Shown: positions 48,050 through 64,000 of the stretch, in pieces | Numbering within the stretch: the first letter of the stretch is position 1 | Layout of the letters: each line of letters starts with the position of its first letter | DNA from: Planctomycetaceae bacterium | Lineage (GTDB): Bacteria > Planctomycetota > Planctomycetia > Planctomycetales > Planctomycetaceae | Assembly: GCA_019636285.1 (NCBI GenBank) | Contig: JAHBXV010000019.1 | Location: 1-64,000 of the forward strand | Direction of reading: 5' to 3' | Length of the DNA: 64,000 nucleotides | Notes under the pieces: generated by a model | The model's database searches: none | Seen by the model: the letters and a program-made list of their open reading frames with translations, nothing else | Told to the model about the DNA's origin: nothing | Translations under genes and position numbers: made by a program

Positions 48050-48119
48050 CTCGACTTCTCCCGACTGGCTGCTCGATTCTTCACCAACCACTACCCACTA
48101 ACCACCAACCACTCCTCCA

Positions 48120-48758: not shown

Positions 48759-49196
48759 CTGTGTATTTGTCTTATCTCGTTTCCTGGCTCCCGCGAAAAT
48801 AAGACTCCCATGACACGATATGTCTCTGGTCCTTCGCCCAAAAACTCGAGACACGTTTTCATTCACAACGGTGAAAGTCGGCCACGGTGCCTCCGTCTGG
48901 GAACGAGTGATTTCGATTCCTCCGATGCCGCAGGCATCGAAGATGGTAGCCGTGGGTCGCGCAGCGCACCCACGGAAAATGGACGTTTTTAGAGCTCCCG
49001 ACCCCCAGCGGGGGTCGCAGAAACACACGAATGTCTGCGACCCCCGCTGGGGGTCGTAAGAGAAATGCTAGCGGCGATTGCGGACCGTGGGTGCGCTGCG
49101 CGACCCACGGCTACCGTCTTTGACCGCTTCGCGGTCAGAAAATGGCTCTTTATCTCGTTCCGAGGCTTCGCGTTCTCCCCTGGAAGGGGCAAACGA
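48759..49196. repeat. 438-base gap with two nested dyads
   Basis: No gene is supported. The centre is a dyad with arms CGACCCCCAGCGGGGGTCGC and inverse (about 49000-49060). It lies inside a larger one: GGTAGCCGTGGGTCGCGCAG (about 48945) and inverse CTGCGCGACCCACGGCTACC (about 49094-49113). The nested symmetry covers about 170 bases and would form a long cruciform or RNA stem. Confidence 0.7.
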
Positions 49197-50237
49197 CTAA
49201 CGACCCACCCCACGCTCCCACCCGGCCTGCTCCACCAGAATCTCGACCGGCCGCGTTGCCGCATCGGGCGACGACAACCCCGCTCGCGGCGGACGCAAAT
49301 CCCGCATCGGTTGACGATCAAGCGGCTGCCGCGCGACATCCCCCCGATACAAGCCTCGCGTCGACTCGGTCCGGGGATCGCCTACGCGCCGCAACACACG
49401 CTCGGCCGCCATCGCGATCGGTTCGTAGTCGACATAGTCGTTCAGCCGGCTTCCCGGCGTCACCGAGACGAGCTGCAATCCCGCCCGCGCGAGACTCTGT
49501 CGACTCAAGCGCAGATACTGCGCGACGCGAAAATAATGACTATCCGTCCGCACCGCCGCCCAGAACTCTTTCTGCTCATCGAAGTGATACTGCTGCCCAC
49601 TTCCAGACCGCGCGAGAGTCTTGCGATCAACTCCACCCTTCTCACACAGCGCCACCAGCTCCGACAACGACTCGCGCCCGGTTGTCGCCAGCGATCTTTC
49701 CTTCGCGAGTTCGCGCAGTCTGTCGCTCGATTCAATCCGCATGTCGCAACCCGCCAAAAGCAACTGTCGGAACCCCAGCCGATACGCCAGCTCAATCGCC
49801 TGTAAAAAGGAGTCGGCCCAATCCCCGATCCTCGCCTTCCCTGCATCCAACCAGTCGCCATAGCTGCTGCAGCCATGGCGATCGAAGAAGACAAGATTCG
49901 GACACTCGCAAACCTTGATCGTCGTCTCCGGCACCACATCCATCGCCCGCCGACGATGAACAAACTTCTGAATGCTGGCGTCCAGGTAGATCGAGCGATG
50001 AAACCGTACGGACGGATCGTAAGACGTCCACAACGTCGGCCGCACGAGCCCCGCGCCACACAGATTCATCGCAAACTTCGGCGCCGGACTCGCCCGCAGG
50101 ATCGCCGCCACCTCTTCGTTCAGAGATGGTCCCCCACCCACGATCCAGCAAGCCGCCGTCCCCGGCCCAAGGTAGAAATCCCCGAGATCCACCACCCGCT
50201 GACAACCATCCGTATCCAATCGATAAAACAGCGACAT
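49197..50237 (-). CDS. DUF115/Maf-like (MptE-like) protein
   Basis: 346 residues from ATG at 50237. The segment AACWIVGGGPSLNEE (about 28-42) is the glycine-rich motif of DUF115, a family that includes Maf proteins, which glycosylate flagellin Ser/Thr, and MptE-like enzymes. Further parts fit a Rossmann-like fold (GFRQLLLAGCDMRI, about 185-198). It is 105 bases downstream of the Ser-rich phage tail gene in the same direction. A role in glycosylating that protein is a hypothesis. The C-terminal 90 residues are unassigned. Confidence 0.7.
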   Translation of the reverse strand: MSLFYRLDTDGCQRVVDLGDFYLGPGTAACWIVGGGPSLNEEVAAILRASPAPKFAMNLCGAGLVRPTLWTSYDPSVRFHRSIYLDASIQKFVHRRRAMDVVPETTIKVCECPNLVFFDRHGCSSYGDWLDAGKARIGDWADSFLQAIELAYRLGFRQLLLAGCDMRIESSDRLRELAKERSLATTGRESLSELVALCEKGGVDRKTLARSGSGQQYHFDEQKEFWAAVRTDSHYFRVAQYLRLSRQSLARAGLQLVSVTPGSRLNDYVDYEPIAMAAERVLRRVGDPRTESTRGLYRGDVARQPLDRQPMRDLRPPRAGLSSPDAATRPVEILVEQAGWERGVGR

Positions 50238-50309
50238 AGGAATCTCGGTGAGAGCCGCCAGCAACCAGCTTCCAGCGACCAGCAAAGAAAAGGCAATACC
50301 CGAATTGGC

Positions 50310-50360
50310 GGGGATTCTTAATCACTAGCCACCAACCACTACCTACCGACCACTGTCCCA
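50310..50360. repeat. ACCAACCACT word-mosaic
   Basis: TTAATCACTAGCCACCAACC, then ACTACCTACCGACCACTG. These are the same tetranucleotide-like words as at 8490-8525 and 48083-48118. They lie between the tail fibre gene and the Maf-like gene and provide the last codons of neither functional domain. Confidence 0.6.
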
Positions 50361-52058
50361 ACTCCCCCAACTCGACCAGCCATAGCTCCACGAGTCGAAC
50401 GAATCATCGGAGCCACTCGAATCGTCCGAATTGCTTGTTCCTCCGCTCAAATCATCGCTCGATCCGTCAATCGCCCCACCTCCATCACTCGATCCATCCG
50501 CATCGCTGCTGAGACCGGACCATGCCGAATCCGAGACACCGGTACTCGTTGCCGCATCGCTCCAGTCATCGTCGCTCGATATCCCCCTGTCGCTCGTGAC
50601 ATCCGACGAAGCATCGCCTTCGCTGGTGACTCCCCCCGATCCGTCAACCGAATCGTCGCTATCCCACCACGAAACGCCCGAACTGAGCCAGTCTGATGAG
50701 ACATCATCCGAGGAAGTCGCCAACGACGACGTTAGCTCGTCGCTCGTCAATCCGCTCGATAGATCGTCCGAGGTCACATCGCTCCCGCCGCCACCTCCAT
50801 CGCTGTCGTCTCCCCCGCCCCCTCCGTCGTCACCGTCATCGAACGAAGGGGGATCGACGCTATCGCCGCCCCAGTCAGAGGCATCCGCCGGCGCGATGGG
50901 CCATCGCTCATCGTGCGGCGGCTCGGGCCACAACTCGCGCGGATCATCAATCCCGATCAGCATCTGCAGTCGCGGCCGATGGTCGAACGCCACCCGCACG
51001 GTTTCGGGAACACCGGCAATCAGCACGTTCCCTTCGCGATCCAAGAGCCGCGCGCCGGCCAGCCACGGTCGCACCACTTCGCTCGCATCGCGAATCACCG
51101 CCTCGTAGCGACTCAGGGGTTGCCCATACCGCATCAGAAACGCCCGCGCGAACGCCTTGGCATCCACACCCGTCCGAATCCAGGGCGCCCACGCGCGAAT
51201 GCGACGCTCCCCATATCGGTCCCGCGACTCCGGTTGCACATAGTGGCCCCGCCAGCGATACACCTCGGGCCGCGCCCCGCTTTCCGCGGCCGCCTGATAA
51301 ACATACCCCCCGGTGAGTAGTAGCCGGTTATAAACCCGCTCCAGATCGCGGTGTTCCACCAGAGAAACCAGGTTCACCCCTTCCTGCCACGTCGGTCCGA
51401 TTTCCTCGCTGGGTCGCCTTAAGAAGAAGGTTCCCGTTTCATCGACTCCCCACGACAGTCCCCCCGCCCGCAGTGCCAGATCCTTCAAGATCGACCGCAC
51501 CGACTCTTCGCCGTTGAATTTCACCGACAACAGCTCCACCGCCTCGTCGGCCACCTCAAAGGCACTATCATCAAAGGCGATCGACGTGGCCGGGACGACA
51601 TAGTCCACGAGCAGCCGACGGATCACCTCTTCCGGCCGGTCCGCCGAGTCGGCTGTTTCCAGGTCATGATCCGGGTCGAGCGAGAACGGATCGGTCACGC
51701 CATAGCGGTGCGGCTTCTGTCCATCTCGCGTCGGACCGAACCCGCCCGGGTAGACCTCTCCCAACTGGACGGCCATCCCCTCCAGCCGAAACCTCGCCCC
51801 GGCCGGGCTCGTCACGCTGCGTGATTCAACACGCCCCAGATACCAGCGGTCCCCTGGTTCGTATTCGCACGCAATCCACGAACCCACTTCGATCGCCCGC
51901 CGGTTGACGAATCGATCCCGTAGCTTCAGTTCGCCTCGGCCGCACCCGCCCTGCCGCTGCAACTCAAACCAGCAACCGGTGATCGCCCGGTCCTCAACGG
52001 TGCCGACGAGATCGCTCGGGCTGGGGCCATACCGCACGATTCGCCGTCCAAATCCCAT
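50343..52058 (-). CDS. Phage tail hub/fibre protein with Ser/Asp-rich C-terminus
   Basis: 571 residues. The first 390 resemble tail hub or baseplate proteins: an N-terminal beta region (IACEYEPGDRWYLGRVES), then IRRLLVDYVVPATSI, VRSILKDLALRAGGLSW, and a barrel-like end (DHRPRLQMLIGI). From residue 392 the chain becomes 180 residues of Ser (about 51), Asp (about 42) and Gly with no Lys, as in SSDDVSSDWLSSGVSWWDSD, ending in WSYGWSSWGSWDSGR. It is the last structural gene of the cluster. The tail could be an extended, possibly glycosylated, surface arm. Confidence 0.75.
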   Translation of the reverse strand: MGFGRRIVRYGPSPSDLVGTVEDRAITGCWFELQRQGGCGRGELKLRDRFVNRRAIEVGSWIACEYEPGDRWYLGRVESRSVTSPAGARFRLEGMAVQLGEVYPGGFGPTRDGQKPHRYGVTDPFSLDPDHDLETADSADRPEEVIRRLLVDYVVPATSIAFDDSAFEVADEAVELLSVKFNGEESVRSILKDLALRAGGLSWGVDETGTFFLRRPSEEIGPTWQEGVNLVSLVEHRDLERVYNRLLLTGGYVYQAAAESGARPEVYRWRGHYVQPESRDRYGERRIRAWAPWIRTGVDAKAFARAFLMRYGQPLSRYEAVIRDASEVVRPWLAGARLLDREGNVLIAGVPETVRVAFDHRPRLQMLIGIDDPRELWPEPPHDERWPIAPADASDWGGDSVDPPSFDDGDDGGGGGDDSDGGGGGSDVTSDDLSSGLTSDELTSSLATSSDDVSSDWLSSGVSWWDSDDSVDGSGGVTSEGDASSDVTSDRGISSDDDWSDAATSTGVSDSAWSGLSSDADGSSDGGGAIDGSSDDLSGGTSNSDDSSGSDDSFDSWSYGWSSWGSWDSGR

Positions 52059-52090: not shown

Positions 52091-52540
52091 CTACTCCGGA
52101 CCGGTCGCGTGCAACACCGGATCCTGCGCATGAATGGTCGCCGCATAAGTAAACAGGTGGCCATCCGATAGATCCCACTCGAACTTCACGGTCGAACACT
52201 GCCGAAAGTGTCGATAGGTGCTCGTCGCCGCGTCGTAAAAGACGAACAGCCAGAAGAAGTCGTCGTCCGCCGAAACATGTAATGCGGTTCTCAACGCTTC
52301 GATCGCCGTCGCCATCGCCTCTTCGGTCAGCTTGAGCGCTCCGGCCTGGCTCCCCACCTGACCCTGCACGACGATGTCCACGCCGTTTCGCGACAAGCCC
52401 ACCAACCGGTCGCCATCGACCAGTGGGACCTTGAACTTTTCCGCGTCCCACGTCTCCTGAATCCGCAGCACCGGCACCGGTCGCGGCAGTTCATGCAGCA
52501 CGCCCCCCCGCCAGACCGCCGGCCGAAACACGAACGCCAT
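52091..52540 (-). CDS. Probable distal tail protein
   Basis: 149 residues, beta-rich: LRIQETWDAEKFKVPLVDGD, LVGLSRNGVDIVVQGQVG, FWLFVFYDAATSTYRHFRQC, LFTYAATIHAQDPVLH. No strong family call. The position between tape measure and hub protein, the length, and the sequence style fit a distal tail or tail tip adaptor. Confidence 0.65.
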   Translation of the reverse strand: MAFVFRPAVWRGGVLHELPRPVPVLRIQETWDAEKFKVPLVDGDRLVGLSRNGVDIVVQGQVGSQAGALKLTEEAMATAIEALRTALHVSADDDFFWLFVFYDAATSTYRHFRQCSTVKFEWDLSDGHLFTYAATIHAQDPVLHATGPE

Positions 52541-52572: not shown

Positions 52573-53259
52573 TCATCCACGCCGGGCTCGCAACCGCGAT
52601 TCTTCCGACATCACCGTGTCCAGAACTTCATCCAGCCGCCCGACCTGTTCCACCTGAATCGTGATCCCGCCAAAGTGATTCGTGACCGTTCCACTCCCGG
52701 ACACGCTCTCACCTCGCGCGCCGCGTCCCGGCTTCCAGCCGCTCTGGTTGATTGCTTCCAGAAAGCCGATCCCCAACCGCTCCACCGCGCTCGCCTGGAG
52801 CACATACTCGCCAGCCGTGAGCAGAGCCGGAACGCGATCGATTCCGCCCGGTCCCGTGACCAACCCACCGGATGCGAAGCGCATCCCCATCGGCTCACCC
52901 CCGCCACCGCCGATCGGAGCCGCCGCAATGAACAGCGACGCCAACTGACTCGCGACCTGACCAATCGCCTGCGACAGCATGGCGAGCGCGTTAAGCGCCG
53001 GCGAAACATTCAGCGACACGCTCGTCCGGCTGAGTTGATCGAGCTTTCCCTGCACCTGGTCGATCGCCCGCGCCACGTTCTGCAAAGGCGCGACTGCCGC
53101 CCCCAGCGAACTCGCCGATCGCCCCGCGCGATCAAACCCACCCTGCACCGCCGAGAGCCGCCCCGCCAACTCCTCCACCCGCCCGGCAACACTCTCCAAC
53201 TCCCCCTGCAACTGCGAACTGTCGCCCAATAGGCGAACGGTGAGCGATTCGGTGAACAT
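52573..53259 (-). CDS. Short tape measure-like tail protein
   Basis: 228 residues from ATG at 53259 after AAGGACTATGCTCC. An N-terminal coiled coil (LQGELESVAGRVEELAGRLS) is followed by a hydrophobic Ala-rich helix (LAMLSQAIGQVASQLASLFI), then the hallmark FASGGLVTGPGGIDRVPALL and TAGEYVLQASAVERLG found at the C-terminus of phage tape measures. Tape measures usually exceed 600 residues. At about 1.5 Angstrom per residue this would give a tail of roughly 30-35 nm, so the particle would have a very short tail. Confidence 0.8.
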   Translation of the reverse strand: MFTESLTVRLLGDSSQLQGELESVAGRVEELAGRLSAVQGGFDRAGRSASSLGAAVAPLQNVARAIDQVQGKLDQLSRTSVSLNVSPALNALAMLSQAIGQVASQLASLFIAAAPIGGGGGEPMGMRFASGGLVTGPGGIDRVPALLTAGEYVLQASAVERLGIGFLEAINQSGWKPGRGARGESVSGSGTVTNHFGGITIQVEQVGRLDEVLDTVMSEESRLRARRG

Positions 53260-53274
53260 GGAGCATAGTCCTTG

Positions 53275-53399
53275 AAGGCAGCGGCCAGCCGCCAGCAACC
53301 TGCGGCCAGCAGGAAAAGGAATCAGGAATCAGCACTCAGCCATCAGCAAGATAGCTGTTTCTTTCTCTCGACCCTCGACACTGGACCCTCGACTCACTC
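53275..53399. repeat. Three-part word-mosaic in the phage cluster
   Basis: CAGCGGCCAGCCGCCAGCAA, then GGAATCAGGAATCAGCACTC, then TCTCGACCCTCGACACTGGA. Each part is a degenerate tandem of short words. Nearly the same series in the same order lies at 56866-56970 and 58190-58320. Confidence 0.7.
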
Positions 53400-53904
53400 A
53401 CGCTCTTGCCACCGTCGGCGACACCTCGAAGCAGCGGCCGCTGAAGGCGATCAGGTTCGCGTCGTCCCCTTCGCTCAGCGTCAGCGATTCGCGGTAGACC
53501 TTGCCGAACGCGATTCGTTCCGTCGCCAGGCCGGCCGGATCGAGGACCGTGAACTCGAACCGCAGCGTCTGTTGTTCGCCCGGCCCCGAAGTACTGACGG
53601 CTCCGGTTCCGTCCGCGAACGTCAAGAGTTCATAGAGTTGCAGAGGATCGCCCGCGTTCACCGATCGCCCCAGGAGCTGCGTCCACTTCGCCGAGAACGA
53701 GATCGCGATTGAATCCTCGTCCCCCTTTCGCAAGTGCCCCTGCGCGACGGATCCCCGGTCCTTGACCTCGATCGTTCGTTGCCGTTCCGTCCATGACAGG
53801 TCCCCCTCGTCGAGAAGCACCGTCAGCGACTTCGCCGGCGTCGAACCGTCCTTGATCACCAGTTCCCCGTCGCGCAGGTTGCGCGCCAGATTCGATACCG
53901 CCAT
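53398..53904 (-). CDS. Major tail protein (probable)
   Basis: 168 residues, almost all beta: LTVLLDEGDLSWTERQRTIE, AISFSAKWTQLLG, PLQLYELLTFADG, LRFEFTVLDPAGLATERIAF, LIAFSGRCFEVSPTVARA. Size, beta pattern and place just before the tape measure fit tail tube proteins of siphoviruses and gene transfer agents. No direct motif is available, so the call rests mainly on order. Confidence 0.7.
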   Translation of the reverse strand: MAVSNLARNLRDGELVIKDGSTPAKSLTVLLDEGDLSWTERQRTIEVKDRGSVAQGHLRKGDEDSIAISFSAKWTQLLGRSVNAGDPLQLYELLTFADGTGAVSTSGPGEQQTLRFEFTVLDPAGLATERIAFGKVYRESLTLSEGDDANLIAFSGRCFEVSPTVARA

Positions 53905-54219
53905 CTCGTCCCCCCCGCTCGATCAACTCGATTTCTGCTCTATCAAGATCAACGATTCAGGCGTGTGCCACTGGCTGTGCCAGTGCCTCTTTAGAATCCC
54001 TTAGTAACCCGAAGCGTCAGCGAGGGAATCTCTCCCCTCTCCCTCGCTGACGCTTCGGGTTATTGAAGACTCCGGGCTGACGCAACCGGTTTTGCTTGTC
54101 AGAAAACCTGCCGAATACCACGCAGACACCTGGTTGCACGGAAGTTGTGTTAGGGATTTCTAAGGCACACTGGCAGAGCCAGTGGCACACGATTCGGAAA
54201 CCGCGATAAAGCACTACTT
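53905..54219. repeat. Gap with four dispersed repeat copies
   Basis: No gene in 315 bases. In order: GTGTGCCACTGGCTGTGCCA (53963-53987); the dyad AGTAACCCGAAGCGTCAGCG with inverse (54003-54065); a full copy of the ACGCAACCGGTTTTGCTTGT element (54072-54162); and the inverse arm GGCACACTGGCAGAGCCAGT (54164-54190). The outer arms pair with each other across the whole segment. Confidence 0.75.
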
Positions 54220-54651
54220 TCAGACTTGCTGAATCACGCCCGCGCATGTCACCACTGCATGCCGCAGGTGCCCGCTTCCCCGCTCGCGGTCCCGCCGCGT
54301 CAGCTCCCGCACCGCTGGCTCCCGCAGCCGCAGGATCGCCTCCGTCGTATCCGTTCCTGGCAATGCCACCACCGTCTGCCGCAACCGCGCGCGAACGCCA
54401 TCGACCAGCACGTTGAGCCGCGCCGCGTCGGCTCCGGTTCTTGCGAAGACATGCACCGTCACCTGCACATCCAACAGGTCCGCTCCACTGCGAGCCGGCC
54501 GTTCGGCTCCCTCCCCAAGCCAGACCTCGGTCCACTCCGGCAGACTCTCGGCTTCCACGCGCATACCGGGAAAAATTGCCACCTCTTCCGACGAAAGCTG
54601 CTCCTGCCACCATCCATAAAAGCCGCGCGACACCGTCGACATCGTGATCAT
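54220..54651 (-). CDS. Tail terminator-like protein
   Basis: 143 residues. Start at 54651 overlaps the stop of the previous gene as ATGA, which fixes it. Features: LDVQVTVHVFARTGADAARL, NVLVDGVRARLRQTV, and a C-terminal strand HAVVTCAGVIQQV. The alternation of strands and helices and the place between the gp10-like and major tail genes fit a tail completion protein (gpU-like). Confidence 0.65.
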   Translation of the reverse strand: MITMSTVSRGFYGWWQEQLSSEEVAIFPGMRVEAESLPEWTEVWLGEGAERPARSGADLLDVQVTVHVFARTGADAARLNVLVDGVRARLRQTVVALPGTDTTEAILRLREPAVRELTRRDRERGSGHLRHAVVTCAGVIQQV

Positions 54652-55073
54652 TCTGCGTCCCCAGACAGCAATTCACTCAGGATTGCCAGCACCTCGGCCC
54701 GGCTGTCGCTCACTCCCCGGCGAACCATCCCCGCCGGGGCTTGCTGACGCGTCCCGTATTCCACGAACGGTCCATACGGCACACGGTTGCTCGCGATCAC
54801 TTCCGTCGTCCCCGCGTTACTCGTGACCACGGCATCCCCGTCTCCGCCAGTTCCACCATCAATCCCGATAGCAATGCTTGCAGCCGCGGCCTCCCACCCA
54901 TCGCGAAGTCTCCCCGTCTCCACGGGCGTCAGCGCGGCGACTCGACCAATCATCACCCGACTCGCAGCGAGCACCCGTTCTGTACGGCCGGCGGCAATCC
55001 GCGAACTCGCGTCCCGCAGCGCGCTCGCCAGCCCGTCGGCGTCAACATCCACCGTCATCTCGAAGGACATCAC
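54648..55073 (-). CDS. HK97 gp10-like neck/tail completion protein
   Basis: 141 residues. Recognised by the family pattern AALTPVETGRLRDGWEAAAA, VVTSNAGTTEVIAS and VPYGPFVEYGTRQQAPAGMV. It joins head and tail during phage assembly. Overlaps on both sides (ATGA at 55070 and 54648) show a tight operon. Confidence 0.82.
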   Translation of the reverse strand: MMSFEMTVDVDADGLASALRDASSRIAAGRTERVLAASRVMIGRVAALTPVETGRLRDGWEAAAASIAIGIDGGTGGDGDAVVTSNAGTTEVIASNRVPYGPFVEYGTRQQAPAGMVRRGVSDSRAEVLAILSELLSGDAE

Positions 55074-55438
55074 GCCCCTTCCCGCTCACCCGTCAACACA
55101 ATCGTCGCGCTCACTTCATCGGCCCGCGTTTCAACAATCCGATAACGCTCTTCCCCCACAACAATCCGCCGCGAAGTGTCACTAACGGCTTCCGGCCAGT
55201 CCTCACGCCGTACCCGCCAGGCCGCGCGCCGCCCCAATTCCATCCCCGCCGTTTCGACCGTCATTGGCGACTCATCACGCAGAGGAATCGCCTCAATCGC
55301 GGCGCTCTCAGTCGCTTCGCTCACCGACTCCGTCGCCCCGACATACGTCGATGTCACCAGCTCCAGCACAACCGGTTCGCCCCAGTCCGCAAACATCCGC
55401 TCCCGATCAGCCAGACGAAGAGATATTGATAGACTCAT
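55070..55438 (-). CDS. Head closure/connector-like protein
   Basis: 122 residues: FADWGEPVVLELVTSTYVGA, GRRAAWRVRREDWPEAVS, RRIVVGEERYRIVETRADEV, then ATIVLTGEREGA. The pattern of a small beta barrel with the phrase ERYRIVE is common in phage head-tail stopper proteins. Identification is by order and style, not by a clear motif. Confidence 0.65.
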   Translation of the reverse strand: MSLSISLRLADRERMFADWGEPVVLELVTSTYVGATESVSEATESAAIEAIPLRDESPMTVETAGMELGRRAAWRVRREDWPEAVSDTSRRIVVGEERYRIVETRADEVSATIVLTGEREGA

Positions 55439-55504: not shown

Positions 55505-55753
55505 TCACGCTCCGAACCGCCTGAGCCACGCCGTAAACAGCGACCCCAGCACGAACGTCGCCACCGCCACCAGCGGCGTCAGGCCGTGACGCCACTGTTC
55601 GAGCGTTCGCAGCCGCGTTTCATGATCGGCTGACACCCGCACCAGTCCGTCGACCGCTACCCGCACGGCCTCCAGGCCAATGTTCACTTCCTGCAGCGAT
55701 TGCAGAATCCGATCCAATCGCTGATCGGTCGTTCCCGGTTCTCCCTGGCTCAT
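55505..55753 (-). CDS. XhlA/holin-like protein
   Basis: 82 residues. A coiled-coil N-terminal half (DQRLDRILQSLQEVNIGLEA, RLRTLEQWRHG) is followed by one transmembrane helix, TPLVAVATFVLGSLFTAWL, and a basic end (RRFGA). This is the architecture of XhlA-type hemolysin/holin accessory proteins. Start overlaps the stop of the upstream gene (ATGA). No endolysin gene is visible nearby. Confidence 0.65.
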   Translation of the reverse strand: MSQGEPGTTDQRLDRILQSLQEVNIGLEAVRVAVDGLVRVSADHETRLRTLEQWRHGLTPLVAVATFVLGSLFTAWLRRFGA

Positions 55754-56031
55754 CGACCCGGCTCCTCACATTCGCAATCGGCCTGTGTCACCACCCACGC
55801 CGGAGCCCCTGCCAGCAACTGCTGATAATGCGTCCTCGCTTCCAGCAGCGCTCGCAGATTCGCCGCGCGATCGGTCTGAGGTCCGCCACCTCCCCCATAC
55901 TTGAGTGCCGACAGCTTCCCGTCTCGCAATAGGTTCAAAACATCCAGATCGATCTGCGCCAGTATCCCGCGAATCTGCGCCTCGCTCGGACTCGCCCCCG
56001 ACACGCCGCTCATGTCCGTCAAGTCACTCAT
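55750..56031 (-). CDS. Small phage-cluster protein, possible connector
   Basis: 93 residues. EAQIRGILAQIDLDVLNLLR is followed by a Gly-rich linker (KYGGGGGPQTD) and a helix LRALLEARTHYQQLLAG, ending in a Cys-containing tail (TQADCECEEPGR). It faintly recalls gpW-like head-tail joining proteins (helix with R..Y..L). Function not certain. It is coupled with the holin-like gene. Confidence 0.6.
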   Translation of the reverse strand: MSDLTDMSGVSGASPSEAQIRGILAQIDLDVLNLLRDGKLSALKYGGGGGPQTDRAANLRALLEARTHYQQLLAGAPAWVVTQADCECEEPGR

Positions 56032-56163
56032 CGGAGATAGTTCCTAATTTGGAACGAAGCGTGCGCAGGTAACCCGAAGCGTCAGCGAGAGCGAAAAAAC
56101 ATAAAACCCTCACTGACGCTTCGGGTTACTGAATACGTCTCGCAGGATATGACCCGATAACCG
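56032..56163. repeat. GTAACCCGAAGCGTCAGCGA dyad copy
   Basis: The left arm GGTAACCCGAAGCGTCAGCG (about 56070) and the inverse arm CACTGACGCTTCGGGTTACT (about 56108-56129) surround AGAGCGAAAAAACATAAAA. It is the third copy of the dyad at 41987 and 54004. No gene. Confidence 0.75.
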
Positions 56164-56358
56164 TCACCGTTCACCGACTCGCGCCGCCGCTTCTTCCTTC
56201 AGCCGCAACCGCTCATACCCCAGCCACCGCAGTTGATCGGCCCGCGTCGCCGCATCGAATTCGGCCTCGCGCAGCGCGAGCCGTTCGCAGACTCGCAGCA
56301 CCAGGTATCCCAGTGTCCGCGGTCCGGTCAGCTCGTCGCCCAGCCGTCCCCCTCCGGG
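56164..56358 (-). CDS. Candidate -1 frameshift extension of the chaperone-like gene
   Basis: The frame -1 to the upstream gene is open from the slippery site at 56364-56358 to a TGA at 56166-56164, giving 64 further residues: PGGGRLGDELTGPRTLGYLV..., DAATRADQLRWLGYERLRL, and a charged end KEEAAARVGER. There is no ATG in it. A GTG (residue L-V-L) could start a shorter protein. If the ribosome shifts at T_TTT_TTC, a fusion of about 231 residues is made, like the G/GT pair of tailed phages. Confidence 0.55.
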   Translation of the reverse strand, partial: PGGGRLGDELTGPRTLGYLVLRVCERLALREAEFDAATRADQLRWLGYERLRLKEEAAARVGER

Positions 56359-56858
56359 AAAAAAAGCCGTTCCGACTCCGCGAGCGTCTGTTCACCCAGA
56401 TGACTCAGCCGGCAGACCTCACCGCACAGCCACGCCAGGTCCCCGGCCGTCCACCCGGCTCGTTCCATCTCGGCGAACACGCCATCCGCATACGCACACC
56501 AGTCGGGGGGCGAACCGAGCACGGTCTCGAAGACCACATTCGGATCCCCCTTCAGCGCCTCGACAATCGCCAGCACCGACACCCGCTGGTGATACTCCTC
56601 CAGTGCCGCCCGAAAACCAGGCTCCTGCTCATCCGCGCTGACCACCGCGAGCCCATCCGCATGACGCAGCGGCTTCCCCTGCGCATCACGCGCTACCTTC
56701 AGCGGCGCGACAGGGGGCACCACCCCCAACCCGCGCAGCCGCCGCGAAAACCCCAGCGGCAAAGCCTGCAACGTCAACTCCGCCCCCCGACCATCCCGCC
56801 GAGGCAAGCGAACTCGAAGACGCTCCAGGCCAGCGTTCGTACAACCAGCGATCTTCAT
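56328..56858 (-). CDS. Tail-assembly-chaperone-like protein
   Basis: 176 residues from ATG at 56858, after GGAGCCTGCACCA. Segments: LERLRVRLPRRDGRGAELTL, YHQRVSVLAIVEALKGDPNV, YADGVFAEMERAGWTAGDLA, CRLSHLGEQTLAESERLFFP. Small acidic helical proteins like this serve as tail assembly chaperones. Codons 165-167 are CTT TTT TTC, and a -1 shift here leads into the extension at 56358-56164. The location after the capsid gene, instead of before the tape measure, is unusual. Confidence 0.65.
   Translation of the reverse strand: MKIAGCTNAGLERLRVRLPRRDGRGAELTLQALPLGFSRRLRGLGVVPPVAPLKVARDAQGKPLRHADGLAVVSADEQEPGFRAALEEYHQRVSVLAIVEALKGDPNVVFETVLGSPPDWCAYADGVFAEMERAGWTAGDLAWLCGEVCRLSHLGEQTLAESERLFFPEGDGWATS
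56358..56364 (-). promoter_or_regulatory. T_TTT_TTC slippery heptamer
   Basis: On the minus strand the sequence GGCTTTTTTTCCCGGAGGGG fits X_XXY_YYZ in the zero frame (codons TTT TTC at 56363-56358). GGAGGGGGACGG directly after it is SD-like and GC-rich and could help stall the ribosome. It joins two long open frames. A sequencing slip in the seven-T run is the main alternative. Confidence 0.55.
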
Positions 56859-56970: not shown

Positions 56971-58167
56971 TCACGCGCCATCCACCTTCGTCACGAACGC
57001 CGTATCCACCGCGCTCACGCCGCCGTAGTAGCGCACTTTGACTCGCAGCACGACGTCGCGGTCGAACGCGCTTTCGCTCTCGGCTTTCTGCAAGAAGGTC
57101 TGCACCGGCCAGATTTCCGACCAGACGAACTGCCGGCGAAAGTCCCCCACATACCAGTCGTTGGCAGCCTGACCACCCTGTTCATCGACAAACGGGCTCG
57201 ACAGCACTTCCAGGAGGCCCTGCACCGGGTTCGCGAACCGCGTTTCCTGGGCGTCGTTGGTCACCGTGATCTCGGTCGAATGGATCACGCTGCGGGCCAC
57301 CCCCCTCAATCGCTCCGGCACCAGCAGTTGCCGCGCCGGCGCGACGATCGGCCGCTGCGTTCCATCAACCCGGTCGTCCTTCACTTCCGTTGCCCGGTAG
57401 TGCAGGGCCGCGTCGATGTCGGTCCAGTCGACCAGTGGAATTGCCGTCGCGAAGCCCGGCGAAGTCGTGTTCCCCGCACCAATCCAGTTACGATGCGCGC
57501 CGCTTGTCGCGTACAGCGCCGTTCCGGCCCCGTTCGGCCGATAGACGAATTTGCCCGTCGTCGCGTCGGCGTCGGTCACCGCCCGCACGATCGTCCGTTC
57601 TCGCTCCTGCCGCAGATAGAACCCGAGCGCCATTGCCCGGCGGTTGATCTCTCCGGTCTGGTCGAAGCCGATCAGCTCTTCGTTAATCGACAGAATCCGA
57701 CCCTGCTTGGTCTCTTCCGTGCTCACCCACTTTTCGCCGAAGGTACTTTCCTCGTAAGGATGCCCTTCCGCCACGTCGGTCGGCCCCGACAGCGCCCGAT
57801 ACCCGGCGATCTTCGCCCCGCGCACGCGGCTCGACATCACGGTCACCAGCTTGTCGCCGATGAACCCCGCGTCGTCCTCGTACCCTTCGATCACCTTCCG
57901 GGCGATCAGTTCCCCCGTCACCACCTGGAACAGGTTCGTTCCCACGCCGGGGTTCGATTCCTGCAGCAGCGCCGGCACGGCTGTGCTCTCCGGCGTCCAA
58001 CTCCGCAGCCGCCGCAATTCGGGCAACACGCCGCACGCCTCCGCCAGCTCGTAATAGCTGACGTCATCCACCTTCAGCTCCCCCTCGTTCAAGAGCTGGC
58101 AAACCTTCCGATAAAATCCCTCCGCCCCAAGGGATTCAATCAATCCCGAAACGCCTACGGTCTGCAT
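56971..58167 (-). CDS. Major capsid protein
   Basis: 398 residues from ATG at 58167, after GGAGAACAACACAT. The N-terminal arm (FYRKVCQLLNEGELKVDDVS) is followed by an HK97-like body: VMSSRVRGAKIAGYRALSG, STEETKQGRILSINEELIG, FYLRQERERTIVRAVTDADA, RQLLVPERLRGVARSVI, and NDWYVGDFRRQFVWSEIWPV, ending VLRVKVRYYGGVSAVD. Size and place after the protease and decoration genes agree. Since the protease is a separate gene, the capsid may be cleaved at its N-terminus. Confidence 0.85.
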   Translation of the reverse strand: MQTVGVSGLIESLGAEGFYRKVCQLLNEGELKVDDVSYYELAEACGVLPELRRLRSWTPESTAVPALLQESNPGVGTNLFQVVTGELIARKVIEGYEDDAGFIGDKLVTVMSSRVRGAKIAGYRALSGPTDVAEGHPYEESTFGEKWVSTEETKQGRILSINEELIGFDQTGEINRRAMALGFYLRQERERTIVRAVTDADATTGKFVYRPNGAGTALYATSGAHRNWIGAGNTTSPGFATAIPLVDWTDIDAALHYRATEVKDDRVDGTQRPIVAPARQLLVPERLRGVARSVIHSTEITVTNDAQETRFANPVQGLLEVLSSPFVDEQGGQAANDWYVGDFRRQFVWSEIWPVQTFLQKAESESAFDRDVVLRVKVRYYGGVSAVDTAFVTKVDGA

Positions 58168-58324: not shown

Positions 58325-58804
58325 TCATCCCAACGCTGCATTCACGTTCGCCGATGCCACATGAAAGGCCGAGGCGAACTGCACGCGCAATGTGGCACTT
58401 GTCGTGGCCCGGTACTCTGCCGCCCGCGCGATGGCTGCCGCTGCCGTCCCAATTTTCATCAGTTGCTGGTCGACCAGTGCATCGCTCGCGTTGTCCGGCC
58501 CGAGCAGATTCCCCACCTCGAAGGTCGACGGATCGACATCGAACTCATAGACCGACAGCGGACTCAGATCGACGGAAATATCGGCCGTCTCTCCGACTCG
58601 CGACGACTGCTGCGCGACCCCCAGAAAGACCGCCGCGAACGCTCCCTGCGTTGTCGCCAGGTTCGTGTCCCATGCGAACGCCGAAGCCGGCTTCACGTCG
58701 TCGCCGTCCAGGTACACGAGGTCACCCGCTTCGATCTCGGTCGCGCTATCAACCCGCAACCGATGCAACTCCACCTGCCCGCTCCGAAACCGCATTCCCG
58801 CCAT
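58325..58804 (-). CDS. Head decoration-like protein
   Basis: 159 residues from ATG at 58804 after GGGGGACTCG. RVDSATEIEAGDLVYLDGDD and FLGVAQQSSRVGETADISVD resemble DUF2190-type and other small head decoration proteins. VGNLLGPDNASDALVDQQLM and an Ala-rich end follow. It lies directly before the capsid gene in transcription order. Confidence 0.75.
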   Translation of the reverse strand: MAGMRFRSGQVELHRLRVDSATEIEAGDLVYLDGDDVKPASAFAWDTNLATTQGAFAAVFLGVAQQSSRVGETADISVDLSPLSVYEFDVDPSTFEVGNLLGPDNASDALVDQQLMKIGTAAAAIARAAEYRATTSATLRVQFASAFHVASANVNAALG

Positions 58805-58842
58805 CGAGTCCCCCCATCGCAAGTTGATTTCTGACGTCATAC

Positions 58843-58866
58843 GTGTGCCACTGGCTATGCCAGTGC
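58843..58866. repeat. GTGTGCCACTGGC single arm
   Basis: GTGTGCCACTGGCTATGCCA, then GTGC, fills the 67-base gap between protease and decoration genes. Its inverse partner is not present here. Confidence 0.75.
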
Positions 58867-58871
58867 TATCT

Positions 58872-59723
58872 TCAATTCACCGCTCGCCCGCGTAACACCC
58901 GCGCGATCCAGCGGTCGTCCGTCGCCCCCTCCCGGCCGCGTCCCAAACTGGCCGGCACGCGCGCCGCCAACCGTCGTCCCAGTTCCGCGCGCTCCGCAAT
59001 CAACTCGCGCCGCTTTCCGTCATCGGCCGCTGCAAGCTGTCGCCGAAACCCTTCCGTCACCAACTCCGCGGGCAACCCGGCTGCCGTCAGTAGCCGTGTG
59101 ACCTCCACTTCGGCCTGTCGGTCACGCTCGTCCGCCTGCAACCTCGCACACTGCGCTTCCAGCACTTGCCGCTCGGCCCGCAGATCCGTGACCTCACGCC
59201 GCAATTCCTCGACGGTCGCGCTCTCGCCGTCGTCATCGAACTGCTCGCGAAACCCCCGCGTCGTCGCCGGAAAGACCACCGCGTCGACACTCACGACATC
59301 GTGGATCCGTTCAACTTGCCCACCCGCCGCGGCTCGTTCCGCGAGCACCACATGGCTCATCCCCACCGCCGGACTGTCGCTCTCCAGAATCGCCAGAAAC
59401 GTCCGACCCGCCTCGGTGTCGAGCACGCGAATGTCGCCCCGCAGCCGTCCGTCTTCGTAACGCGCCTCCTGCACTGTCCCGACCAGGTCCCGAGCGCTCC
59501 GCTCATAGGGTCGTGCTCCCCGCGCCGCGTGATCCAGAAAGACCGGCTTCCCCGCATACAGCACGGCCGCCGCTCGCAGTGTGTCTGCCCCATAGCGATG
59601 CCCGTTCTTCGACACATCGCCACTCAGCACGACATCCGTCACCATCCGTCCGGCGAGATCAACTCGCGTCGTTTCCGTCCGCCAGTCGACCACCTGTTCA
59701 ACGACGGGTTCCAGTTCCGCCAT
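58872..59723 (-). CDS. Prohead protease with C-terminal scaffold region
   Basis: 283 residues from ATG at 59723 after GAAAGGAAAGCAC. The first 155 residues match phage prohead core proteases: SKNGHRYGADTLRAAAVLYA, GKPVFLDHAARG (His), SDSPAVGMSHVVLAE (Ser). A long coiled coil follows (VEELRREVTDLRAERQVLEA), then a basic tail, as in proteins that join protease and scaffold. It acts inside the procapsid. Confidence 0.85.
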   Translation of the reverse strand: MAELEPVVEQVVDWRTETTRVDLAGRMVTDVVLSGDVSKNGHRYGADTLRAAAVLYAGKPVFLDHAARGARPYERSARDLVGTVQEARYEDGRLRGDIRVLDTEAGRTFLAILESDSPAVGMSHVVLAERAAAGGQVERIHDVVSVDAVVFPATTRGFREQFDDDGESATVEELRREVTDLRAERQVLEAQCARLQADERDRQAEVEVTRLLTAAGLPAELVTEGFRRQLAAADDGKRRELIAERAELGRRLAARVPASLGRGREGATDDRWIARVLRGRAVN

Positions 59724-59775
59724 GTGCTTTCCTTTCAAGTGACTTGTACGAGCGCTTCGTCGTCGTCGACTCTTC

Positions 59776-59879: not shown

Positions 59880-60254
59880 CTAGACGGAATCGCACTTAGC
59901 CTGCACGATTACCGTGCCGCCGTCCGCCAGCCAGCGCGCCAGTCGAACACGCGTCCGTTCAATCACCGCTTCCGTCGCCCCCATCAGTCGCGACAGCCAC
60001 CACACCAGCCGCCAGGGCACCGGCACATACAGCCCCGCCCCGTTTCGTAGCGGCACCGGTCGCCGTGCGAAGACGCTCTCCTTCCGCTGCCGCTCCACGC
60101 ATCGGGCCAGCGGCTGAACCAGCCGCGTTCGCTCATCGAGCGGTTTCTCCAGCCAGTCGAGCACCAGCGAAACTTCGCCTTCGGTCGCGGGATGTGTAAT
60201 CGCATCGGGATGGCCCGCCTGTTCATACACCAGCCACAGCAATCGCCCCTTCAT
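59880..60254 (-). CDS. Hypothetical phage-cluster protein
   Basis: 124 residues from ATG at 60254, overlapping the portal stop as ATGA. KGRLLWLVYEQAGHPDAITH, TRLVQPLARCVERQRKESVF, VPVPWRLVWWLSRLMGATEA, then a basic helix. No family recognised. Translational coupling to portal suggests a role in head assembly. Confidence 0.7.
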   Translation of the reverse strand: MKGRLLWLVYEQAGHPDAITHPATEGEVSLVLDWLEKPLDERTRLVQPLARCVERQRKESVFARRPVPLRNGAGLYVPVPWRLVWWLSRLMGATEAVIERTRVRLARWLADGGTVIVQAKCDSV

Positions 60255-61645
60255 GAAGGCCCTCCTTCCGCTCGCTGTGATTCGGATTCGCGGTTCCACT
60301 CCCGCCGCATGGCTTCCGGATCGGCTGAATCCCGCCGCGCCACCTCGGCTCGGCTCAGCACCCCCGCTTCGATCAGCCGGACATCCGCCAGCCGTTCACG
60401 CGGTCGATCGCGATTCACCAGTTGCGGGAACGACCATTGCGCGACGTGCTTCTCGAGGAAGTCTTCCGGCAGCAGTCCCTGTCGGATCGCTTCCCCCATC
60501 ACCCATCGCCACAGCCGTTCGAACTCGCCCGCGAAGAACTGCTGTTCGCTTTCGAACAGCTTCACCGCCGGTCCCTCCGCGACCATTGTCGACGCATAGT
60601 TCCCATTGCTCGCGTCGGCACTCAGCATGAATTCGGGAACGCCCGCCCCGGCGGCGATCGATAGCAGCACCATTCGTCCCAGCGGCACCGCGTCGCCAAA
60701 ATTCGTATCGGGCTGCAGGAATTGCAGATCGGTCCCTTGCGACGTCGTGATGATCGAGCCGGGTTGATAGCGTTCGCGGCCCGTTCCCTGCCGATCGCGA
60801 TGACTCGCCGCTCCATCCGCGATCCCGCTGACAGTCGTGGGTGATCCCTGCACACGCCGCCACAAAACAATCGAGGCCTGGAGCTTCCGGGCCTGAAGTT
60901 CCGTCTCCAGCCACCGCTCATAACAGGCCAGCGCGTCCAACACCGACGCGAAGATCGTCACGCCCCGCTTCTCGTTCGTGTCGGCTCCCAGTCGCGTGTG
61001 CAGCATCTCATTGGCGGGCACCGTCTCCAGCAGTTCGCCCGTCTCGCTTTTCAGCCGCACATAGCCACGCACGCTCTCGACATCGTCCGCGTCGGTCAAA
61101 ATCCCCTGCGTGTCCGGCTCGTCTCGGGTCGGTCCGATCGCTTCCGGATCGACGAACCGCACCGTCGGCGGCCACGACGCCGTGGGATACAGCCGCAGGA
61201 ACGACTCACCATCCCGCCAGGCCCGTCGGGCATATTCCCGAAAACTGAAGTGATCCCGGTTCGCCCGCAGAAACTCATCCCACAACCCGCGCGCGATCTC
61301 GGCTTCGCTCGACGATGTCGTCTCCATCCCCGCACGCGGCACCGGTGTCAATCGCAGACCCGGACCCGTCACGTAGACTTCGAATAGTCTTAGCAGGTTT
61401 CGGGCATACGGGTTCCCCTGCACCAGCCGCCGCGCCCGGTCGCGCAGCTCTTCTCGACGACTTCCATCGATGGCGTTCTTGCCTGCACCGGCGAGCATCC
61501 AGCCAGCCACGTCATCGGCAACCGGAGTAGGACCGCGCTGCTCCAGCATTTCGAGCACGCGCTGTTGCATCACGCGTTCCGACTTCGCCTTCAGCCGCGC
61601 CGTGGTCCATTTGTCCCAGAGGTAATCGAGCATCCGCGACCCCAT
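60251..61645 (-). CDS. Phage portal protein (lambda-like family)
   Basis: 464 residues from ATG at 61645 (another at 61633). LVQGNPYARNLLRLFEVYVT with GPGLRLTP is typical of portal proteins. Further: RAWRDGESFLRLYP, ANEMLHTRLGADTNEKRGVT, SIAAGAGVPEFMLSADASNG, and a charged C-terminus. It forms the DNA entry ring of the capsid. The promoter side holds a CAAAACCCGGTTGGCG element. Confidence 0.87.
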   Translation of the reverse strand: MGSRMLDYLWDKWTTARLKAKSERVMQQRVLEMLEQRGPTPVADDVAGWMLAGAGKNAIDGSRREELRDRARRLVQGNPYARNLLRLFEVYVTGPGLRLTPVPRAGMETTSSSEAEIARGLWDEFLRANRDHFSFREYARRAWRDGESFLRLYPTASWPPTVRFVDPEAIGPTRDEPDTQGILTDADDVESVRGYVRLKSETGELLETVPANEMLHTRLGADTNEKRGVTIFASVLDALACYERWLETELQARKLQASIVLWRRVQGSPTTVSGIADGAASHRDRQGTGRERYQPGSIITTSQGTDLQFLQPDTNFGDAVPLGRMVLLSIAAGAGVPEFMLSADASNGNYASTMVAEGPAVKLFESEQQFFAGEFERLWRWVMGEAIRQGLLPEDFLEKHVAQWSFPQLVNRDRPRERLADVRLIEAGVLSRAEVARRDSADPEAMRREWNRESESQRAEGGPS

Positions 61646-61655
61646 TGGAGATTGC

Positions 61656-61733
61656 GTCAAAACCCGGTTGGCGTGTTCCGTGCCTCCGGAGTCCCGGTAT
61701 CGGATCTGTCGTCCAGAGGGTTTTGACGCAGCA
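61656..61733. repeat. CAAAACCCGGTTGGCG...CCAGAGGGTTTTGACG element
   Basis: An element of about 78 bases bounded by TCAAAACCCGGTTGGCG and CCAGAGGGTTTTGACG, whose ends are partly inverse (CAAAACC / GGTTTTG). The other copy is at 41903-41972 between glycosyltransferase and methyltransferase genes. Boundaries agree but the interiors differ. Confidence 0.7.
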
Positions 61734-61790: not shown

Positions 61791-63278
61791 TCACTGCAAA
61801 AGGCCTTCGGTCACGTCGATCCACTCCCCCTGAAATCCCGCCAGCACCCCTTCCAGGCAAGCCGCTCCCAGCGCGAAGGCCCGATCGTCATGGCTCCCTA
61901 CCTCGCGACGATGATCGATCCGCACGCGACCACTCGCCGCCTGACGCAGCACCAGGCTCGCCAGCTCCGTTTCGAGATCGTCCCGCGCTTCACATTCCGG
62001 CAATTGACCGCACCCGGCTGGCCAGCGAATCTTCCGCTCGACAATCAGGTTCCGCAGCGTCAATGCGAGCGCATGGTTTCCCGCCCCGGCCGCGAAGGCG
62101 AAACGCTTCAAGTCATGCCGCGCGCCCAACCGCTGGATCGTCCCCAGGAGTTGGTATTCATCCACCACGAACCGCACGTTCGCGAACGCTCTTGCCGTCT
62201 CGGCGATCCAGTCCTCGACCCATTGCACGGGCACCGGTCTGTCCGGCGTGGGAACCGCGACGTCCATCCGGTCGACAACCAAATGGTCTCCCTCGACATG
62301 CAGCACGACCCCCACCGTCCGGTCATGTTTCTCCGCATAGTCGATCGCCGCGAAGTAAAAACGATCGGGGCGACCACGGCTGATCTCGCACAGCCCGTCG
62401 TCCCGGCACGCCTCCGCTTCGGCCAGCGTCACGAACTCACCGTCCGAATGTTGCCAGCGGTTTTCCCACAGCCGTGCGAAGACCGCCGGCGGCAACAGTC
62501 GTCGTTGCTCGTCCAGGGCAGCGGCATCGATCCACGGCGCCTGCGAACCTGCCAGCGACGAGAAGTGCCAGCCGGGCGAAGCACGTGCCGCTTCACGCGC
62601 CTGCCACTGCCAGCCCTGGCCCACCCCGGCATTCGTCAGCACGGCCAGTACGCAGTCCGGTTTCTTCGCCGCGCTGGAAAGCAGCGAATACCACAAGTCC
62701 GGCCGCTCCCAATGGCACAGCTCGTCGCAGATTACAAAGTCCGGAAGCTGCCCGTACGAACTCGCGACATCCGACGACAGCACATCCAGACGGCTGCCCG
62801 TTTTCACATTCACCAGGCTGTCGCGCAGGCCCTTCAGATCGTCGCACAGCTCCGGGTTGCTGGCGATCAAATCATTCGCCGCTCGCAGAATCAGCGCTCC
62901 CTGTTCGCGATCGGCTGCCGCAGCCAGACCCTGCACGCGCGACCGCGCATGCTTCAAGACCCACGTCAGCTGCACCGCCATGTCGGTCGTCTTCGAGTGA
63001 CCACGCGGCCGCTCGATCCACGCCCGGCGGACTTTTGGCGCATCCGACATCGGCGATCGACCTGCCAGCCGCATCCACGCCGCATCCAGCGCTTCCAGAT
63101 CGCGAAGCTGCCACGCTTCCAGAAGGTCCCGCAATGGCCGATCGTCATGACGCGACAACCTTGCGACCGCGCGAAATCCCTCGGGGCTGCTGGCCGCGCG
63201 ACGACGACGCAGCTCATCCGTCAGCTGGTTCTTCCACGTCGACTCCCTCTGCCCGGCACGCCTCAGCCAGTTCCGCAT
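61791..63278 (-). CDS. Terminase large subunit
   Basis: 495 residues. The ATPase half has a Walker A-like RPRGHSKTTD (about 92-101) and Walker B LPDFVICDELCHWE (about 176-189). The nuclease half has FAAIDYAEKHDRTVGVV (about 310) and VRFVVDEYQL (about 365). It packages DNA into the head. The start overlaps the small terminase gene by about 65 bases. The length is normal for compact terminases. Confidence 0.9.
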   Translation of the reverse strand: MRNWLRRAGQRESTWKNQLTDELRRRRAASSPEGFRAVARLSRHDDRPLRDLLEAWQLRDLEALDAAWMRLAGRSPMSDAPKVRRAWIERPRGHSKTTDMAVQLTWVLKHARSRVQGLAAAADREQGALILRAANDLIASNPELCDDLKGLRDSLVNVKTGSRLDVLSSDVASSYGQLPDFVICDELCHWERPDLWYSLLSSAAKKPDCVLAVLTNAGVGQGWQWQAREAARASPGWHFSSLAGSQAPWIDAAALDEQRRLLPPAVFARLWENRWQHSDGEFVTLAEAEACRDDGLCEISRGRPDRFYFAAIDYAEKHDRTVGVVLHVEGDHLVVDRMDVAVPTPDRPVPVQWVEDWIAETARAFANVRFVVDEYQLLGTIQRLGARHDLKRFAFAAGAGNHALALTLRNLIVERKIRWPAGCGQLPECEARDDLETELASLVLRQAASGRVRIDHRREVGSHDDRAFALGAACLEGVLAGFQGEWIDVTEGLLQ

Positions 63279-63738
63279 CGCTCATCCCCGCCAGTCGCGC
63301 GGCGTCGTCCTCGGCCGGTGGCATCCACAACGGCGGCTTCCGCTGCCGCAGCCAGAACGTCTGTGCCGGCACGCTCCCCTTGATCGCCGCTCGATACAGG
63401 GCCGAGACCACGTTCAGACTGAGCGCGTCATAGGCGCGCTCGACCGCCGCCAGAAATCCGTCATCGCAATGGCAGGTCGTCCAGAAGCGGTCGACCTCCA
63501 CCCCCAGTTCGCCACAGATGACCGCCGGGCTGGCCCCTTTGACCAGAATGCCCAGAAACGCCTGCTGCTCGGCATCGCTGAAGGGTGTCTCCGCATCCGG
63601 CGCGCGATCACGTTCCGTCTGGTCCGCGCTGACTGTCGCCTCTTCGCCGATTGTCGAAGACGTAGTAGATCGGTCGCGCGTAGCGGCTTTTTTCGTGCGT
63701 TTCCCGGCTGACGAGGCGCTTCTGCCGCCCCGCTCCAT
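63214..63738 (-). CDS. Probable terminase small subunit
   Basis: 174 residues from ATG at 63738, though an upstream start at 63855 is open. A basic N-terminal tail is followed by ETPFSDAEQQAFLGILVKGA and SPAVICGELGVEVDRFWTTC, which read like a helix-turn-helix of small terminases, then VVSALYRAAIKGSVPAQTFWL. Place before the large subunit supports the call. It overlaps the preceding GNAT frame by 131 bases. Confidence 0.65.
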   Translation of the reverse strand: MERGGRSASSAGKRTKKAATRDRSTTSSTIGEEATVSADQTERDRAPDAETPFSDAEQQAFLGILVKGASPAVICGELGVEVDRFWTTCHCDDGFLAAVERAYDALSLNVVSALYRAAIKGSVPAQTFWLRQRKPPLWMPPAEDDAARLAGMSDAELAEACRAEGVDVEEPADG

Positions 63739-64000
63739 AGATCGCCGAGTGTTGCCGGCGACTTCCCCGGCCTCGTCGTGATTGTTCAGCGACTCGCACG
63801 AACCCTGCCCGTTCGAAGAACGGATTGGCATGCCCCATCTCCGCCAGCGATTCAATCCAGGGCGACGGACAACTGCGGCAACTGGCGCGCACGAAGGCCG
63901 CCGCCAGTCCCGCCCCGCGATACGTCGGATGCAGCACCACCCGCGACAGCATTACCAGTTGCGCGTTCAACGCCTGCAATCGCACCCGCGTCCGCGAGCC
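63608..64000 (-). CDS. GNAT-domain protein, C-terminal part, cut by window edge
   Basis: The frame is open to the right edge, so only the last 130 codons are seen. LSRVVLHPTYRGAGLAAAFV and GHANPFFERAGFVRV are the acetyl-CoA loop and last strand of a GNAT acetyltransferase fold. The end, RYARPIYYVFDNRRR, is typical of GNAT domains fused behind an ABC-like ATPase in phage-type clusters. The N-terminal part lies outside. It may start the operon. Confidence 0.65.
   Translation of the reverse strand, partial: GSRTRVRLQALNAQLVMLSRVVLHPTYRGAGLAAAFVRASCRSCPSPWIESLAEMGHANPFFERAGFVRVAEQSRRGRGSRRQHSAIYGAGRQKRLVSRETHEKSRYARPIYYVFDNRRRGDSQRGPDGT

Follow-up and report, generated by a model that had tools for sequence, protein, structure and literature searches.

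Evidence for a frameshifted tail assembly chaperone within a dispersed, phage-derived gene set of the Planctomycetaceae

Gene content of the locus

The window, meaning the whole stretch of 64,000 nucleotides of a Planctomycetaceae contig that was analysed here, contains a set of phage-type packaging, head and tail genes, all encoded on the minus strand. They follow one another in the order TerS, TerL, portal, p139, protease, decoration, capsid, tail assembly chaperone (TAC), g93, g82, g122, g141, g143, tube, tape measure, g149, g571, g362, and two glycosyltransferase-type genes, an order kept partly or wholly across genera. At the packaging end are a probable small terminase (TerS, 63214-63855; phrog_309, E 4.6e-4) and the large terminase (TerL, 61791-63278; phrog_9, E 1e-23, and PF03354), which has intact ATPase and nuclease residues. 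The candidate Walker and nuclease acidic residues of TerL were invariant in 26 homologues, one of which does not cover the last motif. Next come the portal protein (60251-61660; PF05136, E 1e-35), whose only match in the PDB was 8gtd (E 5e-4), and p139 (59880-60299), a small protein conserved in several genera and without assigned function. The head genes encode a probable maturation protease (58872-59738) and a probable decoration protein (58325-58840), both called from position and from weak matches (phrog_2229, E 0.0025, and phrog_122, E 0.04, respectively), and the HK97-like major capsid protein (56971-58167; PF25209, E 3e-18).

The TAC gene (56328-56858) stands directly after the capsid gene and is followed by several small genes. 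These include g93 (55750-56031), a conserved small protein with 53-70% identity across genera and a probable head-tail connector by position only, and g82 (55505-55753), a small protein with a C-terminal membrane segment that matches a PHROG of unknown function (phrog_5225, E 4e-7). Below-cutoff matches suggest a head-tail attachment-like protein for g122 (55070-55438; PF05354, E 0.004) and a tail terminator-like protein for g143 (54220-54651; PF11367, E 0.006), and between these two genes lies g141 (54648-55073), an HK97-gp10-like tail completion protein (phrog_169, E 3e-14; PF04883). The probable tail tube protein (53398-53904; 168 aa) shows 62-74% identity across genera, its role resting on position only. 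The tape measure protein (52573-53298) matches several tape measure PHROGs (best named, 3e-7) and is very short, with 241 aa here and 223-287 aa in nearly all relatives for which a start was found. Synteny supports the remaining genes, namely the probable distal tail protein g149 (52091-52540), the probable tail tip protein g571 (50343-52058), of inferred role and with a low-complexity Ser/Gly/Asp tail, the conserved accessory gene g362 (49197-50285), which has a weak, below-cutoff MptE-like fragment match (PF01973), the glycosyltransferase GT302 (48120-49028; PF00535, E 9e-12), and the probable glycosyltransferase GT364 (46997-48091), annotated by sequence appearance only, without a family scan. 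The stretch formed by g362 and the glycosyltransferase-type genes (46997-50285) is conserved together with the tail genes in many genera, and its products may be involved in modifying the surface of the host or the particle itself.

Two frames and a slippery site in the chaperone gene

The zero-frame TAC gene (56858-56328) encodes a product of 176 residues, in which codons 165-167 read CTT TTT TTC. The slippery heptamer T_TTT_TTC is located at 56364-56358, overlapping a run of seven T (56365-56359), and has the zero-frame register that slipping back by one base after codon 167 requires. Past the slip site, the -1 frame remains open for 64 codons without any ATG and ends at a stop codon at 56166-56164; this T-like domain (56164-56358) would give a fusion product of about 231 aa. 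An earlier note on this DNA had described the heptamer, its register and the ATG-less open frame of 64 codons, all of which proved accurate. The same note had drawn attention to a G-rich stretch 3' of the slip site. In the window copy this stretch does fold better than shuffled sequences (z -3.6), but no conserved downstream RNA structure that could act as a stimulator was found across 32 homologues (mean z -0.5), the strong fold being limited to the window copy. An upstream Shine-Dalgarno (SD)-like stimulator was seen in some homologues, inconsistently across the set.

Neither frame has a significant match in Pfam or PHROGs; weak matches to the Chlorophyll A-B binding family and to other sequence families were treated as chance. 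The AlphaFold2 model of the zero-frame protein is confident (pLDDT 90), and structural comparison using VIA-align placed the HK97 TAC first (2ob9; Z 6.9, 4.1 A over 102 of 107 residues) and YqbN second (3klu; Z 6.0), the next row being an unrelated protein at 3.5. Both cover most of the zero-frame domain, whereas identity is only 15-16% and undetectable by sequence. Foldseek alone gave no significant match for this model in the PDB, and Z values of 6-7 without a clear Foldseek match are moderate and could arise by chance, so that the fold call rests more on both top VIA-align rows being TACs than on the Z values. The -1 domain was modelled as a compact three-helix fold (core pLDDT about 97), without a convincing structural match in the PDB.

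Gene loss points in the same direction as the fold. Four members of the family with a contiguous cluster from capsid to g571 lack the TAC gene; in all four the tape measure is absent as well, with no room for it in the DNA, and in three of them the tube gene is absent too. This joint loss ties the TAC to tail length and tube assembly and, together with the fold, supports the reading of the gene as a tail assembly chaperone that had been suggested from the window alone. Its unusual position, behind the capsid gene instead of ahead of the tape measure, holds up: six genes separate the two, here and in relatives, and in genomes with separated head and tail genes the TAC is the first tail-module gene detected. 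The zero frame and the -1 frame constitute a new sequence family of frameshifted (gpG/gpGT-like) TACs. That the gene is a TAC expressed by -1 programmed frameshifting can be regarded as very probable, with the shift of ribosomes in vivo inferred and no product seen.

In phage lambda, gpG and gpGT both attach to the tape measure, and it is through the T domain that the tube protein is recruited (PMC5009743). Like these lambda-type TACs, the planctomycete gene has a zero-frame chaperone, a slippery heptamer near the 3' end, a -1 C-terminal domain, and tape measure and tube genes in the same module. Unlike them, both of its frames lack Pfam or PHROGs matches (not a defining trait), it stands after the capsid gene and away from the tape measure (adjacency being usual but not obligatory), its sites are U-rich or of the A_AAT_TTY type, and its setting is chromosomal and vertically inherited. 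By analogy, most ribosomes would terminate nine codons past the slip site and release a G-like protein, while a minority would shift their pairing from TTT TTC to TTT TTT and go on to add the helical T-like domain of 64 residues. The tape measure, which is very short here, might then be coated by the G part, with the T domain bringing in the tube protein, these partners being inferred, as is the supposition that the ratio of the two chaperone forms would matter for tail building.

Conservation of the slip site and of both frames

Searches across the family identified the chaperone gene in 32 of 170 genomes and 19 of 58 genera, always as a single copy, as in the source genome. Samples of the class and of the phylum added no homologue outside the Planctomycetaceae. 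Querying genome contigs with the single protein returned two close relatives in planctomycete MAGs, one of them labelled Planctomycetaceae, and a match in Erwinia that was rejected as spurious. A metagenome contig from IMG/VR (L054) is 98% identical, and its slip site is the same as that of the window. With this contig, the 32 genomic sequences make up a set of 33 homologues, many of the genomes being drafts.

The comparison of homologues that the earlier note had proposed was in favour of recoding. All 33 homologues share the two-frame layout, and the outcomes that would have refuted it, a single uninterrupted frame or an unconserved -1 frame, occurred in none. An NNT_TTY slip pair is found at the same aligned position in 32 of the 33, and the heptamer itself varies: A_AAT_TTT (12 homologues), A_AAT_TTC (5), T_TTT_TTC (4), T_TTT_TTT (3), C_TCT_TTC (3, all from one genus), and G_GTT_TTT, G_TTT_TTT, G_GAT_TTT, G_GGT_TTT and G_TCT_TTT (one each). 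Some of these sites are imperfect (C_TCT_TTC, G_TCT_TTT and G_TTT_TTT); shifting at G_GAU_UUU is known from pea enation mosaic virus (PMC5009743). Past the slip site, the zero frame continues for 1 to 18 codons. The sole homologue without a TTY slip pair (L173, G096:C71) lies on a draft contig of 3.2 kb and has an intact -1 domain and capsid.

The occurrence of slip sites was compared with chance using one homologue per genus (n = 19) and strict X_XXY_YYZ heptamers within the frame overlap. A strict heptamer is present in 13 of the 19 genera, as compared with 2.6 expected (maximum 7 in 2000 shuffles) when synonymous codons were shuffled within the gene and 0.7 (maximum 4) when codon order was shuffled. 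The slip site and the second frame are thus far beyond chance. In the alignment of the -1 domain, E25 and Q42 are invariant and R14, R22, R26, R52 and E55 nearly so. Within genera, dN of the -1 frame is well below dS in most pairs, the weakest being G167/G168 (8 changes in 53 codons; dN 0.07, dS 0.14), and in some pairs the extension changes more rapidly than the zero frame. The -1 domain is under purifying selection.

Other ways of obtaining or mimicking the -1 product were weighed against these data. An internal start for the -1 domain was rejected: a start codon precedes the domain in only 8 of the 33 homologues, none of them with an SD-like site, which makes frameshifting the simplest route to the -1 product. 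A run of seven T can slip in transcription. RNA polymerase slippage on the run of the window copy could therefore join the frames in place of ribosomal frameshifting, but about half of the homologues have A_AAT_TTC or A_AAT_TTT, where the T run is only three to five long, and G_GAT_TTT or C_TCT_TTC is found in others; conservation concerns the way in which the tRNAs re-pair and the codon register, and transcriptional slippage is very improbable as the shared mechanism. A sequencing error or a recent frameshift mutation that split one gene might also be invoked, homopolymers being common error sites. This explanation is already contradicted by 33 independent sequences that share the two-frame layout over different DNA at the site, with no fused frame, and by the identical slip site of the independent metagenome contig, which argues against a local error in the window; it can practically be set aside. 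The -1 domain would be reached by frameshift only. Since the evidence is computational throughout, the shift in vivo, the ratio of products, the binding partners, the production of particles and a cargo of host DNA all remain inferences.

Inheritance and dispersal of the gene set

The genes of the cluster have dN well below dS, and genomes mostly have one copy each of the TerL, portal, capsid and tail genes. The capsid gene was detected in 59 of 170 genomes of the family and 120 of 397 genomes of the class, nearly always once, and the portal in 29 of 29 genomes tested, with only a distant match in G002 and G023. Where the sequence reaches them, the flanks are shared within genera (23 genes between G167 and G168), and almost no flank synteny was found between genera. 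Eight cluster proteins from each of 24 genomes were concatenated, and the resulting tree has 15 of 21 splits in common with the host rpoB tree, as compared with at most 3 after label shuffling, and no cluster split with support of at least 95 conflicts with a host split of equal support. Mapped onto the rpoB tree, presence is clustered too, with 10 changes versus 18.7 in shuffles. TerL taken alone agrees poorly with rpoB (5 of 20 splits in common), and 9 of its 15 splits with support of at least 80 are in conflict, versus 0 of 6 at support of at least 95. This weak agreement leaves room for some exchange of the TerL gene.

The set is not confined to one locus. In complete genomes, TerL, portal, capsid and tail genes occupy up to four places megabases apart, and dispersed genes were found in six genomes, each on a single contig (G004, G018, G043, G109, G111 and G167). 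In G004, TerL lies at 3.512 Mb, the portal at 3.694 Mb, the tail module with the TAC at 3.717 Mb and the capsid at 0.109 Mb. In G018, TerL and portal are 0.46 Mb away from capsid and TAC; TerL is 40-130 kb away in the other four genomes, and so is the portal in G043 and G167. With such dispersal, a phage could not package the set as one genome. No tyrosine integrase occurred within 150 kb in complete genomes among the matches listed, which reach down to E values of about 2e-9 and do not include weaker ones. The dispersal, the lack of a listed integrase and a capsid-tail block that is mostly congruent with rpoB make a domesticated, vertically inherited, phage-derived particle of the Planctomycetaceae the likely nature of the set, as opposed to an ordinary prophage.

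Individual copies depart from this organization. In genus g5 (L226, at G004:C1:99000-118900, L227, L229 and L230), the protease, decoration and capsid genes stand alone, far from the tail module. The copy of G023 (L017, G023:C58:65000-84000) is decayed: its capsid gene is cut, a deletion fuses the -1 domain of the TAC in frame to g571, and TerL was not found in a genome-wide search.

A possible gene transfer agent

According to reviews, gene transfer agents (GTAs) are inherited vertically, and the loci that encode them are often separated by hundreds of kilobases (PMC11841831); the planctomycete set fits this description in both respects. It combines phage-derived head, tail and packaging genes with the lack of a listed integrase nearby (replication genes were outside the scan), vertical inheritance as seen in the capsid-tail block and the within-genus flanks though not in TerL alone, and genes dispersed over distant loci, a trait that is common but not obligatory. 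RcGTA of Rhodobacter capsulatus and VSH-1 of Brachyspira similarly have only phage structural and packaging genes, inherited vertically and split over distant loci (PMC7947584, PMC11841831). They differ in belonging to other phyla and in that particle production and DNA transfer are only inferred for the planctomycete set. The capsid, portal and TerL of the window had no sequence match to RcGTA structures in the PDB, and capsid and TerL matched no PDB sequence at all, remote homology to RcGTA not being excluded. A predicted prophage of Zavarzinella formosa, with a TerL near RcGTA-like TerLs (PMC7947584), also combines a planctomycete host with a phage-type terminase. No description of the present element or of a planctomycete GTA was found in the open-licence literature. 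On balance, the gene set is best read, with moderate confidence, as an undescribed GTA, its packaging and transfer functions being inferred. The wider proposal, that the Planctomycetaceae and perhaps much of the Planctomycetia have an undescribed, independently evolved GTA with a frameshifted-chaperone tail, of which some lineages lack chaperone and tape measure, is only slightly favoured.

An ordinary, perhaps defective, prophage would account for the content in phage structural genes, for the many genomes of the family without copies, for the decayed copy of G023, and for the distant capsid relatives (27-40% identity) found in viral contigs; searched against 50,697 phage records, the capsid itself gave no match. 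The gene would then be a prophage tail chaperone, still -1 frameshifted. Such a prophage is improbable given a set that mostly occurs once per genome in flanks shared within genera, with a host-congruent capsid-tail tree, purifying selection throughout, components at up to four places megabases apart, and no integrase among the matches listed within 150 kb. Harder to dismiss, if still unlikely, is the possibility that the domesticated particle serves a purpose other than gene transfer, for instance as DNA-free capsids, as a killing particle, or as a shell for signalling or storage. Some lineages have kept the capsid without tape measure, chaperone and, mostly, tube, and in one relative from another family the genes downstream of the capsid suggest a head without a tail. 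Against such a use, the invariant ATPase and nuclease residues of TerL and the portal present in every genome tested both fit DNA packaging.

The chief interest of the gene set is the presence of a frameshifted chaperone within a vertically inherited, dispersed and phage-derived element. The shift does nothing but append a domain that, by analogy, is without use outside tail building; a selected recoding site in a host-congruent chromosomal element is therefore good evidence that the particle is still being built and benefits its host. Experimentally shown GTAs have been reviewed in Alphaproteobacteria, Brachyspira, Desulfovibrio and Methanococcus (PMC11841831), and a family- or class-wide GTA of Planctomycetes, if true, would widen this list. 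The lineages without chaperone and tape measure offer a natural experiment on tail reduction.

Further observations

A relative from another family of the class (L245, in G308) has portal, protease, decoration and capsid genes, after which a LamG-like gene and small connector-like genes lead over to host genes. No tape measure was seen in this cluster, which may be a form of the element with a head only. In four genera (G000, G001, G013 and G077), the opposite strand carries a gene of about 500 aa upstream of the terminase end (contig position about 65461, L013:5461); it is a possible accessory gene. Within the window, short repeated stretches occur between genes of the element (48800-49340, 53900-54180, 56060-56150 and 58843-58895). 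They are possible intergenic repeats, which read CHWLCQC or AVGRAAHPR in some frames or form the inverted repeat CCCGAAGCG...CGCTTCGGG.
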